A stretch of DNA of 64,000 bases, taken from Paenibacillus faecis (GTDB lineage Bacteria; Bacillota; Bacilli; Paenibacillales; Paenibacillaceae). The notes under the pieces were generated by a model. That model saw only the letters and a program-made list of their open reading frames with translations. It was not told where the DNA came from and ran no database searches. The DNA lies in assembly GCF_008084145.1 (NCBI RefSeq), contig NZ_VSDO01000003.1, forward strand, positions 434,001 to 498,000, written 5' to 3'. Positions 35,568 through 49,083 of this stretch are shown here, piece by piece. Numbering within the stretch: the stretch's first letter is position 1; each line of letters starts with the position of its first letter. A program made the position numbers and the translations under genes.

Positions 35568-35594
35568 AAATTAGCGGGAAAACCTCCCGTTAAT
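35568..35594. repeat. Small palindrome interrupted by IS110 copy 1
   Basis: AATTAGCGGG-AAAACC-TCCCGTTAAT, with the insertion directly after TAAT. The last bases of the usual right arm (TT) are found on the far side of the element at 37153. Confidence 0.9.
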
Positions 35595-35828
35595 CAAACA
35601 TGGCCTAGCGGCCACCGCCAGTAATGAAAATGGTACGGTCATTCACCTACTTTTCTGTTACATTTAAAGTGTGAGTCATAGGTCGGCCAAATATTGGGGA
35701 TCTACCCCGTCCGTTAATCGGACCAACTGCAGCCACGAGGATCGCCGAGTGTTGCCTTGAGCACGTGTATAAATTTTCTCCTCAAAAGGTTGCATGATTC
35801 ACACCCATACTGCAACTGGAGGGATAAT
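35595..35828 (+). other. Non-coding left end of IS110 copy 1, candidate bridge RNA
   Basis: No ORF. A TTGG/CCAA stem encloses two hairpins (GGGATCTACCC and GTCCGTTAATCGGAC) around 35694-35726. CCGTTAAT at 35711-35718 equals the left half of the target (CCCGTTAAT before the insertion). GTATAAAT at 35767-35774 equals the last 8 nt of the element, the left half of the donor junction. Known IS110 bridge RNAs are encoded in this position and carry such guides; the assignment here is inference. Confidence 0.5.
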
Positions 35829-37054
35829 ATGGACGCGATACGCGAATGTTGTGCTGGACTGGATGTCCACCAGGAAACTGTAGTAGCTTGCCTGCTGAGC
35901 GGGCCGCTTCATAAGAAGCCCAAGTCTGTTATTGAAACATTCGGTACCACTACACGAGAGCTCTTGCGGTTACAAGACTGGCTCGTAAAGCACGAATGCA
36001 CAGAGGTTGCCATGGAAAGCACAGGAGTTTATTGGAAGCCGGTGTGGAACATACTTGAGGGCACCTGTACTTTAACCTTGGCAAATTCGCAACATATCAA
36101 AAACGTTCCTGGCAAGAAGACGGATGTAAACGATGCGGAATGGATTGCGGGATTACACCGTTGTGGGCTCATCGATGGTAGCTTCGTCCCGGATGAATCC
36201 ATACGAGATTTGCGGGATCTTACTCGCTACCGTCGAAAACTCATTCAAAACCTTACTCAGGAAAAAAACCGAATCCACAAAATTCTTCAGGATGCAAATA
36301 TCAAACTAACCACGTTCATCTCGGACCTGTTCGGTGTTTCTGGACGTGCCTTACTGGGATCCATCGTCAACGGGGAAGTCCTTGACGTACATGAGGTACG
36401 CAAAATGGTACACACCCGGCTGAAGATGAAGGTCCCGTTGCTGGTTGAAGCACTGAATGGTCGCCTGCGCTTGCATCACCGAAACATGATCAAGCGGCAC
36501 TTGGAACATATACATTATTTAGAAAAGCAGATTCAGGAACTCGAGGCTGAGATTGAATCGGCAGTAGAGCCTCACATGAGGGAAATACAGTTGCTCGATA
36601 CGATTCCGGGAATTGACTTCGATGCTGCGGCGAGCATCGTAGCGGAAATAGGTACCGATATGGCGCATTTCCCAAGTGAAGCTCACTTAGCCTCTTGGGC
36701 AGGCGTTTGTCCAGCCAACCATGAGAGTGCCGGTAAAAAAAAAGAAAAAAGAACAACCGCGGAAACAAGCATATAAAGTCCGTGTTATGCCAAGCGGCAT
36801 GGGCAGCGATAAAAAAGAAGGATAGCCGGTTTACAGCAGTGTACTCCCGAATTGCAAAGAGGGCAGGCACACAGAAGGCTAACATGGCGATCGCCCATTT
36901 GATGATACGAATCATTTATGTAATGCTTCGTGATAAAGTGCCTTATGAAGAATTAGGGCGCGAGTATTTAGTTTCCGACAAAAAAGTAGCAGAGTCCCTT
37001 GTGAAGAAGCTACAAAAGCTAGGTTACCACGTCGAACTAACCGAGACTGCTTAA
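35829..37054 (+). pseudogene. IS110-family transposase, two frames (copy 1)
   Basis: An N-terminal RuvC-like DEDD domain (Asp12 in GLDVHQ, Glu in AMESTGVYW, the pair in KTDVNDAEW) and a C-terminal IS116/IS110/IS902 domain with the catalytic Ser in HESAGK. The frame breaks after SAGK at a run of nine A (36735-36743). The rest (GNKHIKSVLCQAAWAAIKKK to LTETA) is in the -1 frame and ends at 37054. Together they give about 408 residues, normal for the family. Slippage on the A run could restore the protein, otherwise it is dead. ATG 35829 follows TGGAGGG. Confidence 0.85.
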
Positions 37055-37177
37055 ATATTAGTTTTTAAAAAAAGGCAAAAATCATTTAAGGGATGCTTTA
37101 AAGTCAATTTTAATTTCGCGCTGTGAAGCAACAAATTCATTTTCGTATAAATTTAGCTTAACGGGCTTGCGTGTAGC

Positions 37178-37317
37178 AATTAACTGGAAAACCTCCCGCT
37201 AATTTGTGGATGCCAGGGCGGTTTCCCCGTATTGGGCAAAATTAGCGGGAGAAATTCCAGCTAAATCGGGCTCCGGAGGGGAAATGGGCTGATTTAACGG
37301 GAGGTTTTCCCGTTATT
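37178..37317. repeat. Array of three small palindromes after IS110 copy 1
   Basis: Units at 37178-37205 (AACTGG/CCCGCT, mixed arms), 37238-37266 (AGCGGG/CCAGCT, mixed) and 37292-37317 (AACGGG/CCCGTT). Same family as the arrays at 26.7 and 27.7 kb. Confidence 0.9.
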
Positions 37318-37420
37318 CTCCCGTGCAGGCCGTGAGCAGGCCGGTTGCAGGCTCCGTTCGGGCTGACGGCCTGTCCGGCTTGCAGCCGGGCAACTGACCC
37401 TCACATAGCTCACAACCGCA

Positions 37421-37480
37421 CAGCTCGTAACCATGCAGTTTGTAACTATGCAGTTTGTAGCCATACGGTTTGTAGCCATC
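37421..37480. repeat. 15-bp tandem repeat, four units
   Basis: CAGCTCGTAACCATG, CAGTTTGTAACTATG, CAGTTTGTAGCCATA and CGGTTTGTAGCCATC follow each other without spacers. They lie ~100 bp upstream of tag. An ORF runs through them (repeats of CNYAV/CSHTV type) but has no ribosome binding site. Confidence 0.88.
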
Positions 37481-37584
37481 AGCAGGCTGGCGGTCAAGCC
37501 AAGCTAGGATTTTTTTGCCGAATGGGATATGATGGATGGTATCATCTGTTATACAAACAAATGTTCGAGAGGAGTTGGCCTGAC

Positions 37585-38166
37585 GTGACCGTAAATCCAA
37601 CCGATGCCCTTACGCGCTGTGCCTGGGTGAACGCCGATCCCCTGTATATCGCCTATCATGATGAAGAGTGGGGACGGCCGCTGCGCGACGACCGGAAGCT
37701 GTTTGAGCTGTTGATGCTTGAAGGAATGCAGGCCGGGTTGAGCTGGTATACGATTCTGAAAAAACGCGAGAGCTTCCGGGAAGCCTTCGACGGCTTCGAT
37801 CCGATGAAGATTGTGGAGTATGGACCGGATAAGGTCGAAGAACTGCTGCAGAACCCCGGCATTATCCGGAACCGGCTCAAAGTGCAGGGCGTCATCACCA
37901 ATGCCCGGGTCTATCTCGACATCGTCAAGGAGCATGGCGGTTTTGCCGATTACTTATGGAGCTTCGTGGACGGTACACCGGTCGTCAACCAATGGGAGAG
38001 GATCGACCAGGTCCCCGCCTCCACCCCCCTGTCCGACGCCATGAGCAAAGCGCTGAAGAAGAAGGGCATGAAATTCGTGGGAACGACGATTATCTATGCC
38101 TTTATGCAAGCTTCGGGTATGGTGAACGACCACACGCTGAACTGTTTTTGCCGGAGCGGAAACTAA
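37585..38166 (+). CDS. tag: DNA-3-methyladenine glycosylase I
   Basis: A 193-residue base-excision repair enzyme that removes 3-methyladenine. TRCAWVNADPLYIAYHDEEWG at the N-terminus supplies the first zinc ligand Cys, and NDHTLNCFCR at the C-terminus supplies the remaining ligands. LFELLMLEGMQAGLSWYTILKKR is the helix-hairpin-helix region. The GTG start at 37585 follows GAGAGGAG; the in-frame ATG at 37561 would overlap that site. Probably monocistronic. Confidence 0.95.
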   Translation: MTVNPTDALTRCAWVNADPLYIAYHDEEWGRPLRDDRKLFELLMLEGMQAGLSWYTILKKRESFREAFDGFDPMKIVEYGPDKVEELLQNPGIIRNRLKVQGVITNARVYLDIVKEHGGFADYLWSFVDGTPVVNQWERIDQVPASTPLSDAMSKALKKKGMKFVGTTIIYAFMQASGMVNDHTLNCFCRSGN

Positions 38167-38190
38167 AATCCGATTCCTCCGACCAAACGC

Positions 38191-38251
38191 AAAAAGAAAG
38201 AGGTCGCTCCGAGCGCGGTATCATGTCCGCCCGGAAACAACCTCTTTTTTT
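38191..38251. terminator. Bidirectional terminator
   Basis: AAAGAGGT and AACCTCTTT close a long loop with inner pairing, flanked by A and T runs, between convergent genes. Confidence 0.75.
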
Positions 38252-39032
38252 ATTGGAATTCCCACGCACTGAGGCTCAGGGTTCCCCATTGATAGCTCTG
38301 ATGCAGCCGCCGGGCCTTTCGCCCGGCATCGCCCGCCCCCATCGCCAGCAGCAGCGGGATGAAGTGTTCGCTGGTCGGCACGGACTGAGCCGCAAAAGGA
38401 GCCAATTCACGGTAACGGAACAGTTCGTCCGTGTTCCAGTTCTCCAGCCGACGGGCGATCCAGGCGTCAAATTCCCGCGGCCAGGCCTCCACATGATCCG
38501 GCCCGGCGTTCCAGTGAATTTGCCGCAAATTGTGCACGATGCCCCCGCTGCCTATAATCAACACGTCCTGCTTGCGCAATTCTCCTAACGCTTTGCCGAT
38601 TTCGTACTGCTGTCCGTTGCTCAAAGCGCGGTTCACCGACATCGCGACGACCGGAATATCCGCCTCCGGAAAGAGCAGCTTCAATACCGCCCAGGCTCCG
38701 TGGTCCAATCCCCGCTCCGTGTCGCGTTCACTCGTGATTCCCGCGTCGGTGAGCAACGCGGCCACTTTGCCGCTTAATGCCGCATCCCCGGGAGCCGGGT
38801 ACGTCATTTGGTACATTTCCTCCGGAAATCCGTAGAAGTCATGGATCGTATCGTAAGTGTCCACCAAACAGACCTGCTGCACAGGGGCTTCCCAATGGGC
38901 TGAGAATATCACGATTCCTTTGGGCCGACGCGGCAGCGTTTGGGCAAAGTCTTTAAGAAAACGGGTGTATCCGTGATCCTCCAATACCAACGAAGGCGCG
39001 CCATGCGCGAAAAAATACGCAGGGAGACTCAT
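38250..39032 (-). CDS. DODA-type extradiol ring-opening dioxygenase family protein
   Basis: A 260-residue enzyme of the class III extradiol (LigB/YgiD) family. Metal-ligand His are in YFFAHGAPS, IFSAHWEAP and VPTSEHFIPLL, and a catalytic His in ERGLDHGAWAVL. Family members cleave catechols such as DOPA. ATG 39032 overlaps the doxX stop (ATGA), so the two are coupled; pairs like this are induced by quinones or catechols in Bacillus (MhqR and CatR regulons), which suggests aromatic-compound detoxification here. Confidence 0.92.
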   Translation of the reverse strand: MSLPAYFFAHGAPSLVLEDHGYTRFLKDFAQTLPRRPKGIVIFSAHWEAPVQQVCLVDTYDTIHDFYGFPEEMYQMTYPAPGDAALSGKVAALLTDAGITSERDTERGLDHGAWAVLKLLFPEADIPVVAMSVNRALSNGQQYEIGKALGELRKQDVLIIGSGGIVHNLRQIHWNAGPDHVEAWPREFDAWIARRLENWNTDELFRYRELAPFAAQSVPTSEHFIPLLLAMGAGDAGRKARRLHQSYQWGTLSLSAWEFQ

Positions 39033-39421
39033 GCCCGTTCCCTTTTTCTTGCGGTCAACCAACGGTCCAACGACCAGCCCGCCGTATCCGCCAGCACGAA
39101 GAAGATCGCCATGGACAGCAGCGCCAGATCCAGTTCATATCCGTTCAAAAGGCCGGCGGACAGCTTGGCGGTAAAGATTGCCCCCAGCATCACAACGGCA
39201 AGCACCGCCGAAACGTACCGCGTAAACAACCCGACGATCAGAAGCAGCCCGCCGATGAGCTCGATCGGACCGACCAGATAAGCTGCAAAACCGGGAAGAT
39301 GAATGCTCTCAAACCAGGCCGCCACATTGCCCAGTCCCATCTTCATCTTATCCATTCCGTGCGCCAGAAACACGACGCCCAGCACCAACCGCAGAATCGT
39401 CATTCCCCAAACTTGCTTCAT
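39029..39421 (-). CDS. DoxX-family membrane protein
   Basis: A 130-residue protein with four hydrophobic segments. TILRLVLGVVFLAHGMDKMKMG and FAAYLVGPIELIGGLLLIVGLFTR are DoxX hallmarks. DoxX/CatD/MhqP-type proteins accompany dioxygenases in quinone-stress operons; the biochemical role is unclear. AGGAGGAAA precedes the start. First gene of the pair with the dioxygenase. Confidence 0.9.
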   Translation of the reverse strand: MKQVWGMTILRLVLGVVFLAHGMDKMKMGLGNVAAWFESIHLPGFAAYLVGPIELIGGLLLIVGLFTRYVSAVLAVVMLGAIFTAKLSAGLLNGYELDLALLSMAIFFVLADTAGWSLDRWLTARKRERA

Positions 39422-39442
39422 CTATGTTTCCTCCTCAAAAAA

Positions 39443-39550
39443 ATATTAGTAATATGAATATTTTATTCATGGGAATTAAATTACCTTAGTTCATCTGGAT
39501 TGTCAACAAAAATATTGTTATTATTAAACTATGTTTTGTATTACTAATAT
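39443..39550. promoter_or_regulatory. Divergent control region with repeated TATTASTAATA operators
   Basis: ATATTAGTAATAT (39443-39455) and TATTACTAATAT (39539-39550) are near-perfect palindromes with one central base, and TATTGTTATTATT (about 39513-39526) is a weaker third site. The doxX promoter lies between: TTGACA (39506-39501, minus strand), 17 bp, TAATTT. The first operator would fall just downstream of that promoter's start site. Confidence 0.7.
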
Positions 39551-39610
39551 CACATCGTATTAGCGGGCGCCCTGACTTTGAGATCGTTCGCAAGCAGGAG
39601 GGATATGCCT

Positions 39611-40165
39611 ATGGATATCGGGTCCACCATCCGGTCGATCCGGAAACGCAAGAACATCACCATCGCTCAAATTTGTGAAAAAACCGGCCTTTCCCAAGGC
39701 TTTATGAGCCAGGTCGAGACCAACAAGACCTCGCCGTCCATCGCCACTTTGGAACATATCGCCGGAGCCTTGGACGTGCCCCTGGCCTATTTGCTGCTCA
39801 AAAAAGAGGAACGGATGCAAATCGTCCGCAAAGAAGAGCGTATTCTGACCTCGAGCGGACCCGAGCAATTGAGGGTCTTCCATCTCGGATCCACGCAGCA
39901 TATGCGGATGATGATCGTGGAAATCCCCCCCGGCGCTTCTACCGGTGAAATGCCGCACGCCCATGAGGGAGAGGAAATACATCTCGTTCTGCAAGGTAAA
40001 ATATATGCCGAACAAGGCGAGGACAGCGCGATCTTCGAGGAAGGGGATTCCTTCAGCTGGAACGCTTGCACCCCGCATCGGGTACGGAATGACGGCGAGC
40101 AACCGGCCCTGGTGCTGATCTCCGTTTACCACGACGCGCAGAAAGACACAGGCTGGATGGGGTAA
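39611..40165 (+). CDS. XRE-family regulator with C-terminal cupin domain
   Basis: A 184-residue regulator. The helix-turn-helix is at residues ~8-60 (RSIRKRKNITIAQICEKTGLSQGFMSQVETNKTSPSI), and a cupin_2 domain follows with HAHEGEEIHLVLQGKIYAEQGE and GDSFSWNACTPHRVRN. It is divergent from the doxX pair. The start at 39611 is chosen because AGGAGGG lies 8 nt upstream; ATG 39605 would be only 2 nt away. It may control the divergent operon, or itself; the small-molecule ligand is unknown. Confidence 0.85.
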   Translation: MDIGSTIRSIRKRKNITIAQICEKTGLSQGFMSQVETNKTSPSIATLEHIAGALDVPLAYLLLKKEERMQIVRKEERILTSSGPEQLRVFHLGSTQHMRMMIVEIPPGASTGEMPHAHEGEEIHLVLQGKIYAEQGEDSAIFEEGDSFSWNACTPHRVRNDGEQPALVLISVYHDAQKDTGWMG

Positions 40166-40287
40166 TCGATACGAAGATAAGAGATCTCCCGCTTCATTCC
40201 GGTCTACCCATTTTCCGGGTTCCCCGGCATTTACCCAGCCCGATCCGCCAATGCCGCATATGTTTAGTTAAAAAGGGAGATGTTCAG

Positions 40288-40911
40288 GTGAAGGTGAAAG
40301 CGAAGGAGAAACCACCGAAATCCCGGCTCACCATTATCCTCGAAAAAGGAAACCGGCGCATCATCACGCGCACCCCTTTACCGGGGGTGGATAAAGTCGT
40401 GGTGGTCGTCAACCGCCAGTTTACCAATGCGCCCAATACCACGCAGATCACCAGCGGAGCGGGCCGGAGCAGCGCATCCGGCAACAACGCGGCGATTTTA
40501 TCGCCGCTGACCCGGCAGCAGCAAAGCGTGGGCGCCGGCGGCCTGGCCAAAAACCTCGAGGCCAAAGGCCGGCGAAAAGGCAAGCCCGCCGCTTCCGTGC
40601 TGCCGCTTTACCCCGGCGTCCCCGGCAAAGAGGTCGTGATCATCATCAACGACCAAATCGTCAAGCTGCCGAGGGGCTTTACGAACGCCTCGGCGACGCA
40701 GGTGGCCAGCGGAGCCGGGGCGTACAGCACGGGCGGAACGAACTCCGCCATCGAAAGCCCGGGCACCCGGCAGCAGCAGGCCGTAGGCGGAGGGCCGGGC
40801 AGCGCCGCGCTCAACAAATGGTTCGGCCGGGAAACCCGGCGGCAGCGAACCGGACGATCGCGGCGGCTCAAACGCAAGCCCTCCCGCGAAGCCAGGGGGC
40901 GCCGGCGTTAA
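40288..40911 (+). CDS. Two-repeat basic protein of unknown function
   Basis: A 207-residue, strongly basic protein made of two homologous halves: VDKVVVVVNRQFTNAPNTTQ-ITSGAGRSSASGNNAAILSP-LTRQQQSVGAG (from ~34) and KEVVIIINDQIV...FTNASATQ-VASGAGAYSTGGTNSAIESP-GTRQQQAVGGG (from ~117). Each ends in an Arg/Lys-rich tail, and the final one (RRQRTGRSRRLKRKPSREAR) could bind nucleic acid or wall polymers. I recognise no family. There is no signal peptide. AAGGGAG precedes the GTG start and a terminator follows. It is convergent with a SASP gene; a spore-coat link is only a guess. Confidence 0.7.
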   Translation: MKVKAKEKPPKSRLTIILEKGNRRIITRTPLPGVDKVVVVVNRQFTNAPNTTQITSGAGRSSASGNNAAILSPLTRQQQSVGAGGLAKNLEAKGRRKGKPAASVLPLYPGVPGKEVVIIINDQIVKLPRGFTNASATQVASGAGAYSTGGTNSAIESPGTRQQQAVGGGPGSAALNKWFGRETRRQRTGRSRRLKRKPSREARGRRR

Positions 40912-40916
40912 GCGCA

Positions 40917-40965
40917 CGACAAACCGCCGCCGGGGAGGAGGGTCCCCCGGCGGCGGTTTGCGTCG
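40917..40965. terminator. Bidirectional hairpin terminator
   Basis: The arms CAAACCGCCGCCGGGG and CCCCGGCGGCGGTTTG are perfect, between convergent genes. Confidence 0.8.
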
Positions 40966-40983
40966 GGCGCTGCATCGCCCCGA

Positions 40984-41268
40984 TTATTGCGGCCCCCGCT
41001 CCGAAAGCTGCTGCTGGGCTAAGCGGATCATTTCGCGGACCATGGTTCCGCCGATTTTGCCGCCAACCTGTCCGACCGATTCCGTGGTCAGGTTCCCGTT
41101 TTGCCCCGGCCGCAGCGGAACGCCCAGCTCCCGGGCGACCTCAAACTTCACGTCATCCGGCCGGTTCGGGTCAACGGCATATCCTTCGCGCCGCATCACT
41201 TCGGCCTTGAACCTCTGCATCCCTTGATCGGCTCCGGGCACCGCGTACTTCCGATTTCTTCTGGACAA
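40984..41268 (-). CDS. Alpha/beta-type small acid-soluble spore protein
   Basis: A 94-residue DNA-protecting spore protein. VPGADQGMQRFKAEVMRREG, the germination protease site around KFEVARELGV, and the signature GNLTTESVGQVGGKIGGTMVREMI are all present. It saturates spore DNA and guards against UV and heat; made late in the forespore under SigG control in this group. The promoter was not identified with confidence. This gene is the best evidence that the host forms endospores. Confidence 0.95.
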   Translation of the reverse strand: MSRRNRKYAVPGADQGMQRFKAEVMRREGYAVDPNRPDDVKFEVARELGVPLRPGQNGNLTTESVGQVGGKIGGTMVREMIRLAQQQLSERGPQ

Positions 41269-41454
41269 CGAGCTCCACCCCTTCGACTGGTTTTACCCTA
41301 AGATGCCCGGGGACAGCGGGAACTATCCCGGTGATGTTTTTACCAGTTGAACATCGTCGTAGCCCGCCCCGGTATTCAGCCAGCGCGCCGACCAGACACC
41401 GAGATTACAAAATGTACCTCTCTGTTATTATCGGGAGTCCGCCACCTGATGGAC

Positions 41455-41650
41455 CGTCTAACGGAAACTATAGGCGCTATTTCTGTCAAAAGGGCTGATT
41501 TCAATCTCTAACGGAAATAATAGCCGCTATTTAACCGATCTACGATAATGCTCACCCCGAAGGAGCACAATAGGCGCTATTGTGTCCGTTAGAATTTTAA
41601 ATGGGCGTTTATCACCGAAATAGCAGCTATGGCGTCCGTTAGAAGTTCGG
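41455..41650. repeat. TCTAACGGA/AATAGCGCTATT repeat cluster, four units in two orientations
   Basis: Two units read forward (TCTAACGGAAACTATAGGCGC, then TCTAACGGAAATAATAGCCGC) and two read in reverse (ACAATAGGCGCTATTGTG with TCCGTTAGA, then ATAGCAGCTATGGCG with TCCGTTAGA). The rest of the 440-bp gap between the SASP and AraC genes holds no visible gene. Confidence 0.8.
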
Positions 41651-41674
41651 TCCAATCGGTTTAACTTATTCCAG

Positions 41675-41706
41675 ACGGTTCAATCGGTTGAAGAACGATT
41701 CAACCG
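41675..41706 (-). terminator. Hairpin after the AraC gene
   Basis: CGGTTCAATCG and CGATTCAACCG pair with one mismatch just beyond the AraC stop codon. There is no T run, so termination is only possible. Confidence 0.4.
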
Positions 41707-41709
41707 TTG

Positions 41710-42645
41710 TTAATCCTCCCTATCCCCTTCCAACGTCAGGCTCACTTCAGCGGCCGGCCCGCCCTGCTTTCTGGTTTGCGACGGGGTCATGCCGATGTAC
41801 CGTTTATACAGCCTCGTGAAATAGTTGGCGTTCCCGCATCCGACCCGAGCGGCGATCTCGGTGACCGACATCCCGCTTTCCTGCAGCAGCCGCCTCGCCT
41901 CGTTCATACGGCAAACATGGATGTATTCGACGAAGGTCCGGCCCGTCAATTGCTTGAACAGCCGACAAAAGTAAAAAGGCGTCAAATTCAGAAAACGGGC
42001 TGCCTCCTCCACCGACCAGGCCTCCCCCGGATACTCCTCGATCCGGCGGATCAACCGCTTAAAAGGCTCCCGGTTGGGGAAATAGGCCGCATGCGCTGTT
42101 TTTTCCGGCCCCTCCTCCATCCCCGCCCTCGCCAGCAGCGTGAAGTACAGATGGAGTTTTGAGGTAACGACCAATTGGTACCCCTGAGGTCTTGCCGACA
42201 ATTCTTCCACCGCCTCCTCCAGCCAGGCCCGGCTCTGATCTCCCCGGCTAGGATCTTCCGGCTTGACCGGAAAGTGCCGCCGGCCCTCCAAATAGGGCAC
42301 GATCAGTTGGTTATGAACCGGATCATGCATCCAAGGATTAAACAGCGACGGATTCAAAACGATGCAATCGAAATCCACGTCGCCTTCATCCAACGCATAT
42401 CCGACATGCAAACTGCCGCCCGGAATCAGGATAATCTCTTCCGCCCCGGCTTCATATGGACGGCTGTCGATATGAAAAACGGCGCGGCCTCTCCGCATCA
42501 AAATGATCTCCATGTGCTCATGCCAATGTAAATACAGCACGCAATCCCCCGGATTGACCCGGGAGCACCGATTGGCAAAAAGCTGTACGGGATATATTTT
42601 TTGTTCCAGGTAAGTCTCTTCCCTAAGCTCTTTGGGATTGGTCAT
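41710..42645 (-). CDS. AraC-family regulator of the divergent sugar operon
   Basis: A 311-residue regulator: an N-terminal cupin domain (HWHEHMEIILMRRGRAVFHIDS, EIILIPGGSLHVG) and two C-terminal helix-turn-helix motifs (WSVEEAARFLNLTPFYFCRLF; MSVTEIAARVGCGNANYFTRLYKRYIGMTPSQ). The frame stays open to 43236, but that part is antisense to the isomerase gene; GGTGAG upstream supports the start at 42645. Direct repeats in the shared promoter region make it the probable activator of the divergent genes. Confidence 0.9.
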   Translation of the reverse strand: MTNPKELREETYLEQKIYPVQLFANRCSRVNPGDCVLYLHWHEHMEIILMRRGRAVFHIDSRPYEAGAEEIILIPGGSLHVGYALDEGDVDFDCIVLNPSLFNPWMHDPVHNQLIVPYLEGRRHFPVKPEDPSRGDQSRAWLEEAVEELSARPQGYQLVVTSKLHLYFTLLARAGMEEGPEKTAHAAYFPNREPFKRLIRRIEEYPGEAWSVEEAARFLNLTPFYFCRLFKQLTGRTFVEYIHVCRMNEARRLLQESGMSVTEIAARVGCGNANYFTRLYKRYIGMTPSQTRKQGGPAAEVSLTLEGDRED

Positions 42646-42664
42646 TGTAAACATCTCACCACCG

Positions 42665-42726
42665 CAAGATCGGACTAATATTGCACAAGATCGCATAGAG
42701 CAGCCGGCGATCCTCCTAGCTATAAT
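42665..42726 (+). promoter_or_regulatory. AraC-type direct repeats and -10 box
   Basis: CAAGATCG occurs at 42665-42672 and 42686-42693, exactly 21 bp (two helical turns) apart. TATAAT follows at 42721-42726, while the -35 position (about 42698) has no consensus. The second half-site ends 4 bp before it, the geometry of activator-dependent promoters. Confidence 0.75.
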
Positions 42727-42772
42727 GAAGCTGTTAGGACCACTATATGACAATATTGGAGGGATGGGAAGC

Positions 42773-43660
42773 ATGGAACACTTCCTGCGCATCGGCACGT
42801 TGGTCGGGGGCGGCGACGCCGACCGCATCATTCCGCAAATCGTCCGGCATGGCTTCGAATCGTTTAATTTGACCTTTTGGCAGACCACCGGGAAAACGAA
42901 CCTAGAGGAGTTGGCCAAACGGGTGCAAACCCTTGCCGAAGAACATGACTTTGTGATTTCAGCCCTAAGCATATTCGGCAACCCGTTGACCGGAGCAGGC
43001 GACAACGCCGATACACTGGCCAGTTGGGAACGGCTCATCGACCATGCCCATTTGTTCGGCACCGATTTGGTAACCGGTTTCACCGGAAGGCTTCCCGGAC
43101 AGCCGATCGACGAATCGATCCCGAAATTCAAGGAAGTTTTCGGCGAACTATCGCGCCGGGCGGCGGACCGTGGCGTACGCCTCGCTTTTGAGAACTGCGA
43201 TATGGGCGGGACCTGGCAGAACGGCGATTGGAACATCGCTCACAACCCTACCGCCTGGGAAATGATGTTCAACGCCGTACCGGCGGACAATATCGGACTG
43301 GAATGGGAGCCCTGCCACCAGATGGTCAGCCTGATCGATCCGATCCCGCAGCTGAGAAAGTGGGCGAAGAAGGTGTTTCACGTTCACGGCAAGGACGCCA
43401 CCATCGCCTGGGACGTCGTCAAGGAATACGGGGTACACGGCAAACAGCCTTACGTCTGGCATCGGACGCCCGGTTTCGGAGACTGCAACTGGGCGGATAT
43501 CATCACGATTTTGCGCCAGAACGGATACCGGGGAACGATCGATATTGAGGGATGGCATGATCCTGTTTACAAGGATGAGCTGGAAATGACCGGGCAGGTT
43601 CACGCTCTCCGCTATTTAAAATTTTGCCGGGGCGGCGACATCGTCCCCAACCCGGTTTAG
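42773..43660 (+). CDS. Xylose-isomerase-like TIM-barrel sugar isomerase/epimerase
   Basis: A 295-residue protein of the AP endonuclease 2/sugar phosphate isomerase superfamily. Probable metal ligands lie in LAFENCD, LEWEPCHQ, KVFHVHGKDA and TIDIEGWHD. The start at 42773 follows GGAGGG by 9 nt. It is followed 19 bp later by a Gfo/Idh/MocA dehydrogenase, a pairing typical of inositol or unusual-sugar catabolism. The true substrate cannot be read from sequence. Confidence 0.85.
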   Translation: MEHFLRIGTLVGGGDADRIIPQIVRHGFESFNLTFWQTTGKTNLEELAKRVQTLAEEHDFVISALSIFGNPLTGAGDNADTLASWERLIDHAHLFGTDLVTGFTGRLPGQPIDESIPKFKEVFGELSRRAADRGVRLAFENCDMGGTWQNGDWNIAHNPTAWEMMFNAVPADNIGLEWEPCHQMVSLIDPIPQLRKWAKKVFHVHGKDATIAWDVVKEYGVHGKQPYVWHRTPGFGDCNWADIITILRQNGYRGTIDIEGWHDPVYKDELEMTGQVHALRYLKFCRGGDIVPNPV

Positions 43661-43679
43661 AAAGGGGGCTTAGACGGCC

Positions 43680-44738
43680 ATGATCGGTTTAACGAAAAAG
43701 CACCGTGTCCTCGTCGCCGGCTGCGGCGGCATGTCCCACATTTGGGTCGATTACGCGCTAAGCCGCAGCGATACGGAAATCGTGGGGCTTGTGGACCTGA
43801 GCCTCGAAGCCGCCGACGCGTTGGCTTCCCGGAAGGGGCTTTCCTGCCCGCGATTTACCGATCTCCGCGAAGCGATTCTCCAGACGGACGCTACCTTGGT
43901 ATTTGATGTGACCATCCCCGCAAGCCACTATGTCATCGGCAAAACAGCGATGGAAATGGGCTGTCATGTCTTTGCGGAGAAGCCCCTGGCCGAGAACCTT
44001 GCGCAGTGCCTGGATCTGCTTGAGCTATCGCGGAAAAGCGGCAAAATCCATGCCGTCATGCAGAACCGCCGCTTTGACCCGAACATCCGCGCGCTCCGCC
44101 GCCTCGTCGGCGAGGAAACGATCGGGCGGCTCGGCTTTATCGGCGCGGACTTTTTTATCGGCCCGCATTTCGGCGGATTTCGCGATGCCATGGACAGCCC
44201 GCTTCTGCTCGATATGGCGATCCACACCTTCGATCAGGCCCGCTATATTCTGGGCGCCGACCCCGTCTCGGTGTACTGCCATGAGTTTAATCCACCCGGC
44301 TCCTGGTATGCCGGAAACGCGATGGCCGTCTGTATTTTTGAAATGTCCGACGGTTCGGTGTTCAACTATCGCGGCTCCTGGTGCGCCGAAGGGGCGTCCA
44401 CTTCGTGGGAAAGCTCCTGGAGAATCACCGGCGAGTTCGGCACGGCCTTATGGGACGGACAAGGCGAGCCCTATGCGGAAATTGTGGCGGAGGGGAGCTC
44501 CGCCGACCGGTTTATCCGCGAAACGAAGCGCGTCGCCGCCGTTCCCGTGAACATGGCCCTGACCGGCCACCAGGCTTGTCTCGCGAACATGTTCGATGGG
44601 CTGGAGACCGGGGCCCGGCCGGAGACGGATTGCAGCGACAACATCCACAGTATCGCCATGGTATTAGGGGCGGTGGAGAGCGCCAGGTCGGGGAATAAGG
44701 TCCATTTTGCCGAGTTTATGAGAAATGGGTGGGCCTAG
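43680..44738 (+). CDS. Gfo/Idh/MocA-family oxidoreductase
   Basis: A 352-residue NAD(P)-dependent sugar dehydrogenase-type enzyme. The Rossmann motif VLVAGCGGMSHIW is at the N-terminus. The family motif HVFAEKPLAENL carries the conserved Glu-Lys-Pro, and the active-site segment is LLDMAIHTFDQARYILG. It is the second gene of the AraC-controlled operon with the isomerase-like gene. AAAGGGGG lies upstream at a longish spacing. Confidence 0.9.
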   Translation: MIGLTKKHRVLVAGCGGMSHIWVDYALSRSDTEIVGLVDLSLEAADALASRKGLSCPRFTDLREAILQTDATLVFDVTIPASHYVIGKTAMEMGCHVFAEKPLAENLAQCLDLLELSRKSGKIHAVMQNRRFDPNIRALRRLVGEETIGRLGFIGADFFIGPHFGGFRDAMDSPLLLDMAIHTFDQARYILGADPVSVYCHEFNPPGSWYAGNAMAVCIFEMSDGSVFNYRGSWCAEGASTSWESSWRITGEFGTALWDGQGEPYAEIVAEGSSADRFIRETKRVAAVPVNMALTGHQACLANMFDGLETGARPETDCSDNIHSIAMVLGAVESARSGNKVHFAEFMRNGWA

Positions 44739-44813
44739 TGCCCCGGGCAGGCATCGAAATCGTATTTAGCCCATGGGGGTTAAGGGGCCCCGCGCGGCCT
44801 TCCTGCCCCCTCC

Positions 44814-44983
44814 CAACTCCAAAAAGATGCAAATCTGCAGGCTTTTAGATCGATTTCACGAGCGGATGCGAAAAAGGATGCAAATCTGCAGGTATTTCTA
44901 GCGATTTTAGAGTAACAAGCTGGTTTCGTCGAAAATTCCTGCAGATTTGCAGGAATTTTATATTACCAAGCTGGCTGATGGGC
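44814..44983 (+). repeat. Interspersed mosaic repeat, copy 2 (short form)
   Basis: Two direct GATGCAAATCTGCAGG units (44828 and 44877), then the linker TAGCGATTTTAGAG, and the inverted unit CCTGCAGATTTGCAGGAATTTT ends the core, with tail AAGCTGGCTGATGGGCC. Fills most of the 407-bp gap before the wall hydrolase; the rest shows no gene. TCGTATTTAGCCCA lies ~55 bp before it and recurs before copy 3. Confidence 0.87.
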
Positions 44984-45145
44984 CTTATGAAGCAAAACCG
45001 CACTCTGCTCTATACCCGATAAGAACCAGGCCTGAGGCAGTGATAAAACTCTATTTTCCATATTTTTCTGCACAACTCTCATCTCCCAGACTCGTCCAAC
45101 TAAGTGAGCTTTATAATTTATTTTAATTCTTGGGAGGATGACCTC

Positions 45146-46213
45146 ATGAAAAAACCGAAAAAGAAACACGCCCTCCTGCTTCTGCTTAGCGCGGGACTTC
45201 TTACCACCGCGGTTCCGGCCTATGCCGCCGAGTCCGCAGCACAGGGTTCGGCACCGCAGCAGACGCCGCCGGTGAACATTGTGTTGGACGGGAAGCGGAT
45301 CCAACCGGTCGCGGATCCAAAAATCGTGGACGGCGCTGTGCTCGTTCCAATGCGCGGTCTGTTTGAGGCGCAAGGCGCGAAGCTCGCTTGGGACGGCGCC
45401 ACCAAAACGGTGACAGCCACCAAAGGGGATGCGAAGCTCACCTACCGGTTGGGCGAAAGCTTGGCCGAGCTGAACGGCCGGACGCTGCAGGTGGATGTTC
45501 CGGGGCAGGTGGCGGACGGCCACACGCTGGTTCCGCTGCGTATGGTAAGCGAAGCCCTGGGCAGCACCGTCGTTTGGGAAGAGGACGCCCGAACCGTCCG
45601 CATTACGTCTGCCGCCCTCATCGGCAAAGAGGCGTCGATCCGCTGGGGCGTGAATCTGCGGAGCGCTCCGGACGCGGAGAGTGAAGCCGCGGAGGAACTG
45701 CTTCCGGCCGGCGCCAAGGTCACGGTTCTCCGCGAAGCCTCGCCGTTCTGGCTGGAAGTCAGCACGGAGGACGGGCGGACCGGCTACATATCCGCAAAAC
45801 CGAAATACACCGACTATACAAGCTCTGCCCTGCGGGACAAGCAGGCGGATGAGCTGCTCGCCTATGGCATGACCTTTGCCGGCACCCCGTATGAATTCGG
45901 CGCGTCGCCGGATCAAACCGCCACCTTTGACTGCTCGTCTTTCGTCAAGCGGGTATTTGCGGATACGTTGGGGATCGAGCTCCCCCGGGTATCCTATGAC
46001 CAAGCCAAAGAAGGACAAGAGGTCAAAATCGAGGATCTCCGCAAAGGCGATCTGCTCTTTTTCGGGGCGCGCGGTTTGGATATCGGCCATGTCGGCATCT
46101 ATGCGGGGGATAACCAAATTTTGCACACGTACTCGAAAAAATACGGCGTTCGCCTGGAGGCTTTCTCCGACAGCTGGAAAGAGCGGTTCGTGACCGCGCG
46201 CAGGGTGTTTTAA
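45146..46213 (+). CDS. Secreted NlpC/P60 peptidoglycan hydrolase with copper-amine-oxidase-N and SH3 domains
   Basis: A 355-residue secreted wall enzyme. Signal peptide (MKKPKKKHALLLLLSAGLLT to AYA), a copper amine oxidase N-terminal-like domain (NIVLDGKRIQPVADPKIVDGAVLVPMRGLFEAQGA...; ~40-150), a bacterial SH3 domain (VNLRSAPDAESEAAEELLPAGAKVTVL; ~165-225), and an NlpC/P60 domain with the catalytic Cys in FDCSSFVKRVF and His in DIGHVGIYAG and LHTYSKK. It should cut the gamma-D-Glu to diamino-acid bond. ATG 45146 follows GGGAGGATG. Confidence 0.93.
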   Translation: MKKPKKKHALLLLLSAGLLTTAVPAYAAESAAQGSAPQQTPPVNIVLDGKRIQPVADPKIVDGAVLVPMRGLFEAQGAKLAWDGATKTVTATKGDAKLTYRLGESLAELNGRTLQVDVPGQVADGHTLVPLRMVSEALGSTVVWEEDARTVRITSAALIGKEASIRWGVNLRSAPDAESEAAEELLPAGAKVTVLREASPFWLEVSTEDGRTGYISAKPKYTDYTSSALRDKQADELLAYGMTFAGTPYEFGASPDQTATFDCSSFVKRVFADTLGIELPRVSYDQAKEGQEVKIEDLRKGDLLFFGARGLDIGHVGIYAGDNQILHTYSKKYGVRLEAFSDSWKERFVTARRVF

Positions 46214-46362
46214 TGGTGGATGACACGCGGAACAGGCTACGGGGGCGAACAGCGGACGGTGCGTTGGGTGGCGTATCAGGTAGTGCGCCAAGCGGCACGT
46301 TAGGCTGGGCATCACGTGGCACGTCAGGCCGCAGGTCATGCTGCGCACCAGGCGTCGTGTCA

Positions 46363-46499
46363 GTTAGCGGGAGAATATCCCGCTAATTGGGCCGGACCCG
46401 CCCAGGGAGCCCAAATAGCTGGAAAATCTCCGGCTAATCCGTGCCCTGCAGCTCCGTTAGCCGCTTTGCGACGAAATAGCGGGAGGAAATCCCGTTAAT
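46363..46499. repeat. Array of three small palindromes
   Basis: Units at 46363-46388 (AGCGGG/CCCGCT), 46412-46439 (AGCTGG/CCGGCT) and 46473-46499 (AGCGGG/CCCGTT). The 150 bp before them (46214-46362) contains no gene. Confidence 0.9.
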
Positions 46500-46800
46500 G
46501 TAAGAGGACGACGGGACCGGACACTACACTCAGAAGATCGAGGCACTCAGGTGAAGGATTAGTTAGTTGAGTAATATGATTGGCCTGCGGTGTTTAGTTA
46601 CGGTAGGAGATAAAGGCAAGTTAGAGCTTGGACATGTTAGGCTGGGCGAGGGCAGGCCTAGCCTTGGGGTCGGGCGCGGCGATGGATGGGCATGGATGGG
46701 CTCTGGTTGGGACCTGAGCGGCAGATTAACGGGAAAAACTCCCGTTAAATGACGCGCGAATGGCCAAGTGCGAGGATTACCTGGAAAAAATCCCGCTAAT
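46500..46800. repeat. 301-bp duplicated module, copy A
   Basis: Begins GTAAGAGGACGACGGGACCG and ends TCCCGCTAAT. It contains two small palindromes near its right end (46724-46750 and 46777-46800, the second cut by the IS110 insertion). It matches 48668-48968 in length and almost every base, and its first 152 bp match 48473-48624. A 61-codon frame inside lacks a convincing ribosome binding site. Confidence 0.92.
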
Positions 46801-47034
46801 CAAACATGGCCTAGCGGCCACCGCCAGTAATGAAAATGGTACGGTCATTCACCTACTTTTCTGTTACATTTAAAGTGTGAGTCATAGGTCGGCCAAATAT
46901 TGGGGATCTACCCCGTCCGTTAATCGGACCAACTGCAGCCATGAGGATCGCCGAGTGTTGCCTTGAGCACGTGTATAAATTTTCTCCTCAAAAGGTTGCA
47001 TGATTCACACCCATACTGCAACTGGAGGGATAAT
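46801..47034 (+). other. Non-coding left end of IS110 copy 2, candidate bridge RNA
   Basis: Same as in copy 1 apart from a C to T change in GCAGCCATGAGG. CCGTTAAT lies at 46917-46924. The target of this copy reads CCCGCTAAT, one base off the guide-like match, which a G-U pair would tolerate. Bridge RNA function is inference. Confidence 0.5.
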
Positions 47035-48260
47035 ATGGACGCCATACGCGAATGTTGTGCTGGACTGGATGTCCACCAGGAAACTGTAGTAGCTTGCCTG
47101 CTGAGCGGGCCGCTTCATAAGAAGCCCAAGTCTGTTATTGAAACATTCGGTACCACTACACGAGAGCTCTTGCGGTTACAAGACTGGCTCGTAAAGCACG
47201 AATGCACAGAGGTTGCCATGGAAAGCACAGGAGTTTATTGGAAGCCGGTGTGGAACATACTTGAGGGCACCTGTACTTTAACCTTGGCAAATTCGCAACA
47301 TATCAAAAACGTTCCTGGCAAGAAGACGGATGTAAACGATGCGGAATGGATTGCGGGATTACACCGTTGTGGGCTCATCGATGGTAGCTTCGTCCCGGAT
47401 GAATCCATACGAGATTTGCGGGATCTTACTCGCTACCGTCGAAAACTCATTCAAAACCTTACTCAGGAAAAAAACCGAATCCACAAAATTCTTCAGGATG
47501 CAAATATCAAACTAACCACGTTCATCTCGGACCTGTTCGGTGTTTCTGGACGTGCCTTACTGGGATCCATCGTCAACGGGGAAGTCCTTGACGTACATGA
47601 GGTACGCAAAATGGTACACACCCGGCTGAAGATGAAGGTCCCGTTGCTGGTTGAAGCACTGAATGGTCGCCTGCGCTTGCATCACCGAAACATGATCAAG
47701 CGGCACTTGGAACATATACATTATTTAGAAAAGCAGATTCAGGAACTCGAGGCTGAGATTGAATCGGCAGTAGAGCCTCACATGAGGGAAATACAGTTGC
47801 TCGATACGATTCCGGGAATTGACTTCGATGCTGCGGCGAGCATCGTAGCGGAAATAGGTACCGATATGGCGCATTTCCCAAGTGAAGCTCACTTAGCCTC
47901 TTGGGCAGGCGTTTGTCCAGCCAACCATGAGAGTGCCGGTAAAAAAAAAGAAAAAAGAACAACCGCGGAAACAAGCATATAAAGTCCGTGTTATGCCAAG
48001 CGGCATGGGCAGCGATAAAAAAGAAGGATAGCCGGTTTACAGCAGTGTACTCCCGAATTGCAAAGAGGGCAGGCACACAGAAGGCTAACATGGCGATCGC
48101 CCATTTGATGATACGAATCATTTATGTAATGCTTCGTGATAAAGTGCCTTATGAAGAATTAGGGCGCGAGTATTTAGTTTCCGACAAAAAAGTAGCAGAG
48201 TCCCTTGTGAAGAAGCTACAAAAGCTAGGTTACCACGTCGAACTAACCGAGACTGCTTAA
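47035..48260 (+). pseudogene. IS110-family transposase, two frames (copy 2)
   Basis: Same domain layout, same stop and same nine-A run (47941-47949) as copy 1, so the frame break predates the duplication or is functional. The second frame carries the end of the serine-containing domain and stops at 48260. Codon 4 differs silently from copy 1 (GCC for GCG). Confidence 0.85.
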
Positions 48261-48358
48261 ATATTAGTTTTTAAAAAAAGGCAAAAATCATTTAAGGGAT
48301 GCTTTAAAGTCAATTTTAATTTCGCGCTGTGAAGCAACAAATTCATTTTCGTATAAAT

Positions 48359-48472
48359 TTGCCGTGATTGGGCCGGACTGGCCAAAAGGAGCTGAATTAG
48401 CGGGAGGAAATCCAGCTAATTGGGCGATATCCCACCAAATGAGCGATATTAACGGGAGAAAATCCCGTTAAT
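48359..48472. repeat. Module spacer with two small palindromes
   Basis: Right flank of IS110 copy 2. It contains palindromes at about 48394-48421 (AGCGGG/CCAGCT) and 48448-48472 (AACGGG/CCCGTT). The first part (GTGATTGGGCCGGACTGGCC) recurs after module C at 48972. Confidence 0.85.
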
Positions 48473-48642: not shown

Positions 48643-48667
48643 ATTAGCGGGAGAATATCCCGCTAAT
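48643..48667. repeat. Small palindrome between modules B and C
   Basis: TATTAGCGGGA-GAATA-TCCCGCTAAT; flanks as in the other arrays. Confidence 0.88.
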
Positions 48668-48968
48668 GTAAGCGGACGGCGGGACCGGACACTACACTCA
48701 GAAGATCGAGGCACTCAGGTGAAGGATTAGTTAGTTGAGTAATATGATTGGCCTGCGGTGTTTAGTTACGGTAGGAGATAAAGGCAAGTTAGAGCTTGGA
48801 CATGCTAGGCTGGGCGAGGGCAGGCCTAGCCTTGGGGTCGGGCGCGGCGATGGATGGGCATGGATGGGCTCTGGTTGGGACCTGAGCGGCAGATTAACGG
48901 GAAAAACTCCCGTTAAATGACGCGCGAATGGCCAAGGGCGAGGATTACCTGGAAAAAATCCCGCTAAT
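48668..48968. repeat. 301-bp duplicated module, copy C (empty IS110 site)
   Basis: Full copy matching 46500-46800. It ends in the palindrome ACCTGGAAAAAATCCCGCTAAT and is followed directly by TTGCAGTGATTGGG, so it shows what the IS110 copy 2 target looked like before insertion. Confidence 0.93.
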
Positions 48969-49083
48969 TTGCAGTGATTGGGCCGGATTGGCCAAAAGGA
49001 GCTGAATTAGCGGGAGGAAATCCAGCTAATTGGGTGAGGTTACACCAAATGGGGGAAATTAACGGGAGGAAATCCCGTTAATT
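48969..49083. repeat. Two small palindromes after module C
   Basis: Units at about 49004-49031 (AGCGGG/CCAGCT) and 49058-49083 (AACGGG/CCCGTT), the same order as after IS110 copy 2. Confidence 0.88.

Follow-up and report, generated by a model that had tools for sequence, protein, structure and literature searches.

An IS110-group element inserted at the edge of an abundant palindrome in Paenibacillus faecis, with a predicted bridge RNA and a broken recombinase frame

The 64,000-nucleotide stretch of the Paenibacillus faecis genome analysed here (contig NZ_VSDO01000003.1, positions 434,001 to 498,000; hereafter the window) carries two copies of an insertion sequence (IS) that, judged by its sequence, is a member of the IS110 bridge-RNA family. 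It is very probable that this is an IS110-group element whose left end encodes a bridge RNA, and that the guides of this RNA select the edge of a palindrome dispersed through the host genome. The insertion sites and their correspondence with the predicted guides are described first, followed by the recombinase gene, which was out of frame in every copy.

Insertion sites of the element

The host genome (6.34 Mb, nine contigs) was scanned for copies of the element, which revealed seven full copies and one interrupted copy. The original prediction had placed the two 1558-bp elements of the window at the same position of a palindrome arm and had proposed tabulating the flanks of all copies in the genome. 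The tabulation bore this out: all 8 insertions (8/8) started directly after TCCCG[T/C]TAAT, and no palindrome-free insertion occurred among them. The left flank was TCCCGTTAAT at seven sites and TCCCGCTAAT at one. The window copies had one of each, with right flanks starting TTAGC and TTGCC, and the eight right flanks of the genome began with TTAG, TTGC, TTAC, TTGG, TTGG, TGAC, TTGG, and TTGG. The non-coding ends of the element measured 234 bp on the left and 98 bp on the right. The interrupted copy (L008, L009) contains a 1.67-kb insertion at genome position C1:502156-503823, which we take, by eye, to be of the IS3 type.

The left flank of copy 2 matched the sequence at 48645-48968 with 97.8% identity over 324 bp, and its right flank matched 48969-49082 with 90.4% identity over 114 bp. 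An uninterrupted equivalent of the copy 2 site, claimed earlier as its preserved empty site, therefore exists, although it lies in a neighbouring paralogous module and not at the same locus. The eight flanks and this module indicated insertion at one core without long target duplication. Since the empty module reads ...TAAT up to the insertion point and TTG after it, and the element ends on the right with ...ATAAAT, a two-base core inside the AAT common to both would fit, in line with the AAT core proposed before. Insertion occurs at the outer edge of the arm, and thus the palindrome remains whole. No open reading frame (ORF) of 100 aa or more crossed the joined site at the seven full copies, which agrees with the idea that the palindromes are safe landing sites.

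The palindromes had been expected in dozens of copies. In the window, CCCGYTAAT occurred 25 times against 0.99 expected, and none of 100 shuffles reached as high a count (0/100). Genome-wide, the arm TCCCGYTAAT was found 403 times and a reversed-pattern control 12 times, while 39 other genomes of the same genus contained 14 to 75 arms each. The arms build short palindromes, frequently four in a 191-bp unit, and a search with a blended sequence of this unit returned at least 46 matches, at least 40 of them long (best 40 of 148 candidates). The 191-bp repeat, with its four short palindromes and conserved spacers (e.g. C4:210257-210447), occurs at approximately 40 places in this genome (G000). 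Filled and empty arms, whose comparison had also been proposed, were compared in 148 distinct arms, a sample of the 403 that is enriched in the 191-bp unit (8 filled, 140 empty). TT stood next to 7/8 filled and 32/140 empty arms (p = 0.0004), and TTG next to 5/8 and 21/140 (p = 0.0045). The choice of the element among the arms is non-random. Overall, the prediction was correct on the site and on how general it is; the RNA guide mechanism and the broken frame were absent from it.

The possibility that the palindromes are repetitive extragenic palindromic (REP) sequences linked to a REP-associated tyrosine transposase (RAYT) was also considered and was rejected on the basis of 10 Y1 transposase loci, inspected with about 1.5 kb on each side, in which the exact arm was present in 0/10. 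Y1 transposases (PF01797) gave 14 matches in the genome.

Predicted bridge RNA and its guides

Structure prediction with RNAalifold on an alignment of 20 relatives revealed compensatory changes at 13/23 consensus pairs. One internal loop had the two target guides on its opposite sides, a second stem contained the donor guide, and a common outer stem enclosed both. The limits given for the RNA in Table 1 are those of the outer stem and do not represent mapped transcript ends. The predicted left target guide, CCGTTAAT, is the same as the outer edge of the host palindrome arm, which would explain why the element copies sit there. Compared with the nearest relative, L145, guide bases were kept at 5/10 and 2/7 positions and the other bases at 84/118, and the predicted guides diverge more than the predicted RNA scaffold.

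The alignment structure was preferred to a single-sequence fold of the left end, in which a hairpin closed over the left guide. A right donor guide candidate found by eye, GCAUGAUU, was not accepted because part of it sits in a conserved stem. The Rfam scan of positions 26000-50000 returned no family reaching its gathering score.

Table 1. Positions of the features of the element and its insertion sites in the window
Feature	Position	Strand	Remark
IS110-type element, copy 1	35595..37152	+	1558 bp
IS110-type element, copy 2	46801..48358	+	1558 bp; 2 bases differ from copy 1
Palindrome with both arms, intact	35570..35594	.	copy 1 at its outer edge
Imperfect palindrome	46776..46800	.	copy 2 at its outer edge
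Uninterrupted paralogous module	48645..49082	+	equivalent of the copy 2 empty site
Predicted bridge RNA core, copy 1	35670..35803	+	alignment structure; outer stem, target-binding loop, donor-binding loop
Predicted right target guide, GCCAAAT	35686..35692	+	reverse complement of ATTTGGC
Predicted left target guide, CCGTTAATC	35711..35719	+	equals junction at element left end
Predicted left donor guide, GTATAAAT	35767..35774	+	equals element right end, 37145-37152
Recombinase, frame 0	35829..36776	+	DEDD domain plus the Tnp part reaching the catalytic serine; stop after 315 aa
A9-G-A6 slippery run, copy 1	36735..36750	+	directly after the ESAG motif
A9-G-A6 slippery run, copy 2	47941..47956	+	
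Remainder of the Tnp domain	36737..37054	+	-1 frame

Guides and target sites among relatives

A total of 295 genomes of the family were searched, of which 183 had a match, and 60 stretches were taken for reading. A further 80 named loci, the best 80 of 571 confirmed stretches, were added; among their hosts are Paenibacillus, Cohnella, and Brevibacillus. Where a relative had several copies, their left flanks were near-constant inside one genome and different between subfamilies. The flank was GCGAAAAAC or TCGAAAAAC for the elements of genomes G154, G117, and G181, TGAGTAA in G263, AATAA in G157, TGCACAAA in most copies of G191, ATATAAGA in G205, and ACAGAAAA in the three G129 copies with a readable left flank. 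The letters of the flank recurred at one position of the left-end RNA, bordered by a CCC[CT]G-like stretch on one side and a CYG-like stretch on the other. The G205 element (L139-L144) has a T-run as left flank in 5/6 copies, terminator-like by eye, and the guide ATATAAGAC.

The correspondence was evaluated by a blind search for the longest common substring of flank and RNA in 96 distinct RNA segments from 177 loci, several of the segments being near-copies of one another. Identical segments, loci with fewer than 330 bases upstream, and loci lacking a C-terminal match were left out. In the wide segment, a match of at least 9 nt was obtained for 64/96 own pairs and 415/9120 swapped pairs; when the segment was limited to the guide place, the figures were 60/96 and 239/9120. 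The swapped-pair figure is raised because some subfamilies have targets in common. Among the wide-segment matches, 57 fell at the guide place and represented 50 different strings.

To locate the right target guide, the sequences 5' and 3' of the left guide were searched for the complement of the core and the adjoining right flank. Loci were retained when the left guide had been found and the right end fitted one pattern, which gave 65 loci with 26 distinct RNA segments. One segment per guide family was then taken (n = 15), excluding near-copies, L155, L158, and L160, whose right flank was truncated, and L185. On the 5' side of the left guide, the own match was 4.87 against 4.01 in permuted pairs (p = 0.00085). 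A position on the 3' side, plausible by eye, failed the permutation test (3.60 against 3.65, p = 0.69) and was rejected. All 26 segments gave 4.46 against 3.60 on the 5' side and 3.46 against 3.37 on the 3' side. The predicted left donor guide also followed the right end of the element, being GTATAAAT here, GTATTAAA in G154, ACAGAAAAA in G157, GTACAAA in G129 and L157, and GGGGTAG in one element of G120.

Host repeats matched to the guides

Three palindrome patterns, picked after the elements had been seen, were counted in 16 genomes. The pattern TGTATGCGAAAA occurred 37 times in G154, 90 in G117, 255 in G181, 30 in G220, 52 in G247, and 53 in G224, against 0 to 7 times in the ten other genomes. 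The elements of these six genomes have guides ending in GCGAAAAAC, TCGAAAAAC, or GCGAAAAC. TGAGTAA..TTACTCA palindromes numbered 17 in G263 and 0 to 2 in the 15 others, and TCCCGYTAAT numbered 403 in the present genome and 15 to 64 in the 15 others. Some relatives thus aim at other palindromes, and only hosts whose elements have the corresponding guide contain these in abundance. The post hoc choice of patterns counts against the generality of palindrome targeting, as do the sites of G157, G205, G120, and others, which had no visible palindrome.

The G224 element (L081) belongs to a distant clade, with 49% identity to the protein described here. Its guide is nearly that of the G154 clade and its host has the same palindrome, and the element has therefore apparently converged on, or captured, this guide. 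These elements would represent natural, replicated retargeting of a bridge RNA, in which a conserved scaffold receives new guides and several of these match a host-specific repeat. They amount to an existing resource for studying how RNA-guided elements locate target sites that are plentiful and harmless.

Recombinase and its frame break

The recombinase matched PF01548 (DEDD_Tnp_IS110) with 97.7 bits. The Transposase_20 domain was split over two frames, scoring 58.1 bits for the frame-0 part and 23.3 bits for the -1 part (cut-off 21.3). The frame-0 product stops soon after ESAGKKK, and the rest of the domain follows in the -1 frame. Residues D12, E63, D99, D102, and the catalytic serine S300 were invariant in 15 sequences, the DEDD set being assigned by motif and by alignment with IS621. 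Profile comparison also matched the recombinase with IS621 and ISCro4, proteins of solved structure, and this match ended at the serine. IS621 has 326 residues with S241 as its catalytic serine, and its wedge residues Y264, M265, and M268 come further along the chain (PMC11208158). Because the match ends at the serine, the 315-aa product should lack the region corresponding to the wedge. The full-length protein would have approximately 410 aa, as in the in-frame relatives.

Frame state was surveyed at 170 loci, of which 168 had a recognisable C-terminal part. Among these, 123 were in frame, 42 needed a -1 shift, and 3 needed a +1 shift, so that 42/45 shifted loci were in the -1 direction. Five of the 123 in-frame loci have a stop short of 360 aa or extend past the contig end, and an extra, earlier stop was present in L078 (-1) and L176 (+1). 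Many of the 42 loci at -1 are copies within one genome; they comprise 13 distinct 33-base site sequences. By inspection, the slippery run stood in the right phase, as A AAA AAA or A AAA AAC. A phylogenetic tree was constructed from 100 distinct N-terminal parts. Rows interrupted by a stop within their first 300 codons were dropped and identical rows merged, the merging hiding the +1 copy L121. In clade A, 4/4 rows were at -1 (support 100/99), and in clade B five rows were at -1 and one at +1 (support 100/99). The shifted frame was open for 74-106 aa in the nine rows at -1 of both clades. Its dN/dS (ratio of non-synonymous to synonymous substitution) was 0.06-0.13 in clade B (9/10 pairs with computable dS) and 0.08 in the single computable pair of six in clade A, the others being saturated; the wrong-frame control gave no usable number. 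On this sequence evidence, programmed slippage is likely in clades A and B. As both -1 and +1 shifts occur in this element family, the rule given in PMC3711429 points to transcriptional rather than ribosomal slippage. At the corresponding place, L163 of Alicyclobacillus tolerans has a run of A16 and is in frame as assembled.

For the present genome, the frame break may reflect decay, a switch in run length, or miscalling of the run. Ordinary decay, with the A-run acting as a mutation hotspot and the present copies dead, having been spread earlier by an intact copy now lost, seems rather unlikely, while several findings agree with it. The -1 state needs 8 changes on the tree and thus arose several times, and this genome yielded no in-frame copy. 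The nearest tree relative, L145 of P. tyrfis, is in frame, which counts against programming in this genome. In G263 (L119-L123), run length varies among copies of one element, with in-frame copies beside out-of-frame ones. No stimulatory structure was found after the A-run, the mean z being 0.03 at 12 out-of-frame and -0.60 at 13 in-frame loci against single-base shuffles. L007, the only diverged full copy, had two non-synonymous and no synonymous changes in the C-terminal part, which likewise suits decay; upstream of the A-run, 11/12 of its coding changes were synonymous. Decay is nevertheless difficult to reconcile with clades that are out of frame throughout (4/4 rows at -1 in A; 5/6 at -1 and 1 at +1 in B) and yet have dN/dS of 0.06-0.13 in the 10 of 16 pairs that allowed its computation. 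Out-of-frame elements are also multi-copy, with seven full copies here and at least seven matches each in G129, G041, and G157.

A DNA-level contingency switch, by which run length would toggle the recombinase on and off, is improbable. The variation between the G263 copies is what it predicts, whereas run length was uniform among the eight copies of this genome and, within each of G129, G157, and G041, among the copies read. Less probable still is an assembly artefact in which a miscalled homopolymer makes an intact gene of this genome look broken. Runs of this length are prone to miscalling, and a systematic error would affect all copies alike; against this, the same frame state was observed in many separate assemblies.

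If slippage is real, it would add a layer of control to a recombinase class now used in genome engineering, and it would explain why annotation may split these genes.

Proposed mechanism

The left end of the element would encode a bridge RNA. In one internal loop of this RNA, the left target guide CCGTTAAT would correspond to the outer edge of the palindrome, and the right target guide of the same loop would pair with the bases just outside it (ATTTGG), while the second loop would match the element's own right end. We infer that the RNA is expressed and bound, that a circular form of the element exists, and that catalysis takes place. Together with the RNA, the DEDD/serine recombinase would then insert the circle at the edge of the palindrome by recombination. 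The exchange would use a two-base core inside AAT, produce no long target duplication, and leave the palindrome intact. Changes in the guides would have retargeted relatives, several of them to palindromes plentiful in their own hosts. Full-length recombinase is likely produced only when slippage occurs at the A8/A9 run that follows the catalytic serine, and this dependence would hold its expression low. More tentatively, and with somewhat less than even confidence, the family may represent a Bacillota branch of bridge-RNA recombinases in which programmed slippage serves as expression control and the guides are repeatedly, sometimes convergently, retuned to expanding host palindromes, so that element and repeat evolve together.

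Several observations weigh against the mechanism proposed above for this element. The right guide matched imperfectly at 4/8 sites (TTAG, TTGC, TTAC, TGAC), and the left-end RNA offered no assignable right donor guide. Of the own pairs, 36/96 fell below 9 nt at the guide place, and 7/64 wide-segment matches lay elsewhere (L073, L078, L124, L132, L176, L201, L221). The A9-G-A6 run was identical in 8/8 copies, including L007 with its 16 differences; the frame is thus broken in all of them and the element may be inactive now. The C-terminal changes of L007 given above belong with these observations.

A guide-free alternative, recognition by the recombinase of the cruciform or hairpin formed by palindromes in general, is highly improbable: several relatives with other guides do enter palindromes, but at another position (here the arm's outer edge; in G154, G117, and G181 the loop side), and the sites of G157 and G205 match their own guide without a visible palindrome.

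Comparison with known systems

The mechanism would be that of IS110 bridge-RNA systems already known, and palindrome targeting by elements of this kind has been reported for IS621 and in a 2006 survey (PMC1525189). The element resembles IS621 in its DEDD and Transposase_20 recombinase, its long left end with a predicted bridge RNA, its guide pairs for target and donor, and its insertion into a repeated palindrome (PMC11208160, PMC11208158). The core differs, being CT in IS621 (PMC11208160, PMC11208158) and probably AT or AA within AAT here, and the recombinase is out of frame, with approximately 410 aa expected against 326 in IS621 (PMC11208158). In the alignment structure, the outer stem encloses both loops, unlike in IS621. 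The guide order is also reversed: in IS621 the left target guide (50-58) precedes the right target guide (77-80; PMC11208158), whereas here the predicted right target guide lies 5' of the left one.

This order is that of the IS1111-group seekRNAs, in which the segment with complementarity to the top strand is 5' of the one for the bottom strand (PMC11187229). IS1111 RNAs reverse the IS621 order, and the one IS110 RNA in the same paper follows the IS621 order. Elements of the IS1111 group carry subterminal inverted repeats and have their RNA downstream of the gene (PMC11187229), whereas the RNA here is upstream. The right end of 98 bp, with the guides in the left end, differs from the long RNA-bearing right end of the IS1111 type. 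Since the right guide lies 5' of the left guide, the element would have an upstream RNA with the IS1111 order, and such an arrangement widens the design space.

ISPa11, ISPpu9, ISPpu10, and ISRm19 are likewise palindrome-targeting members of the IS110 family (PMC1525189; for ISPpu9 also PMC8450116), with 6/6, 7/7, 7/7, and 4/4 counted copies in REP palindromes (PMC1525189). They differ in their Proteobacteria hosts and in the palindromes entered, and the survey that described them predates the RNA guide (PMC1525189).

In the literature searched, we met no upstream RNA with this guide order (the six RNAs drawn in PMC11208160 were not compared by figure), no host-matched and apparently convergent guides in this bacterial family, and no recurrent slippage site after the catalytic serine. 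The same literature yielded no IS110 element with programmed frameshift or transcriptional slippage, which does not show its absence from print; 'frameshift' occurs 0 times in PMC11187229, PMC11208160, and PMC11208158, and IS110 occurs 0 times in PMC3711429 and PMC1088944. Transposases of IS1, IS3, IS5, and IS630 are made by frameshift, in a list that does not include IS110 (PMC5009743). As proposed here, slippage joins two frames in those elements, and A-runs are common sites (PMC5009743, PMC3711429). Unlike in those transposases, the break described here splits one catalytic domain directly after its serine.

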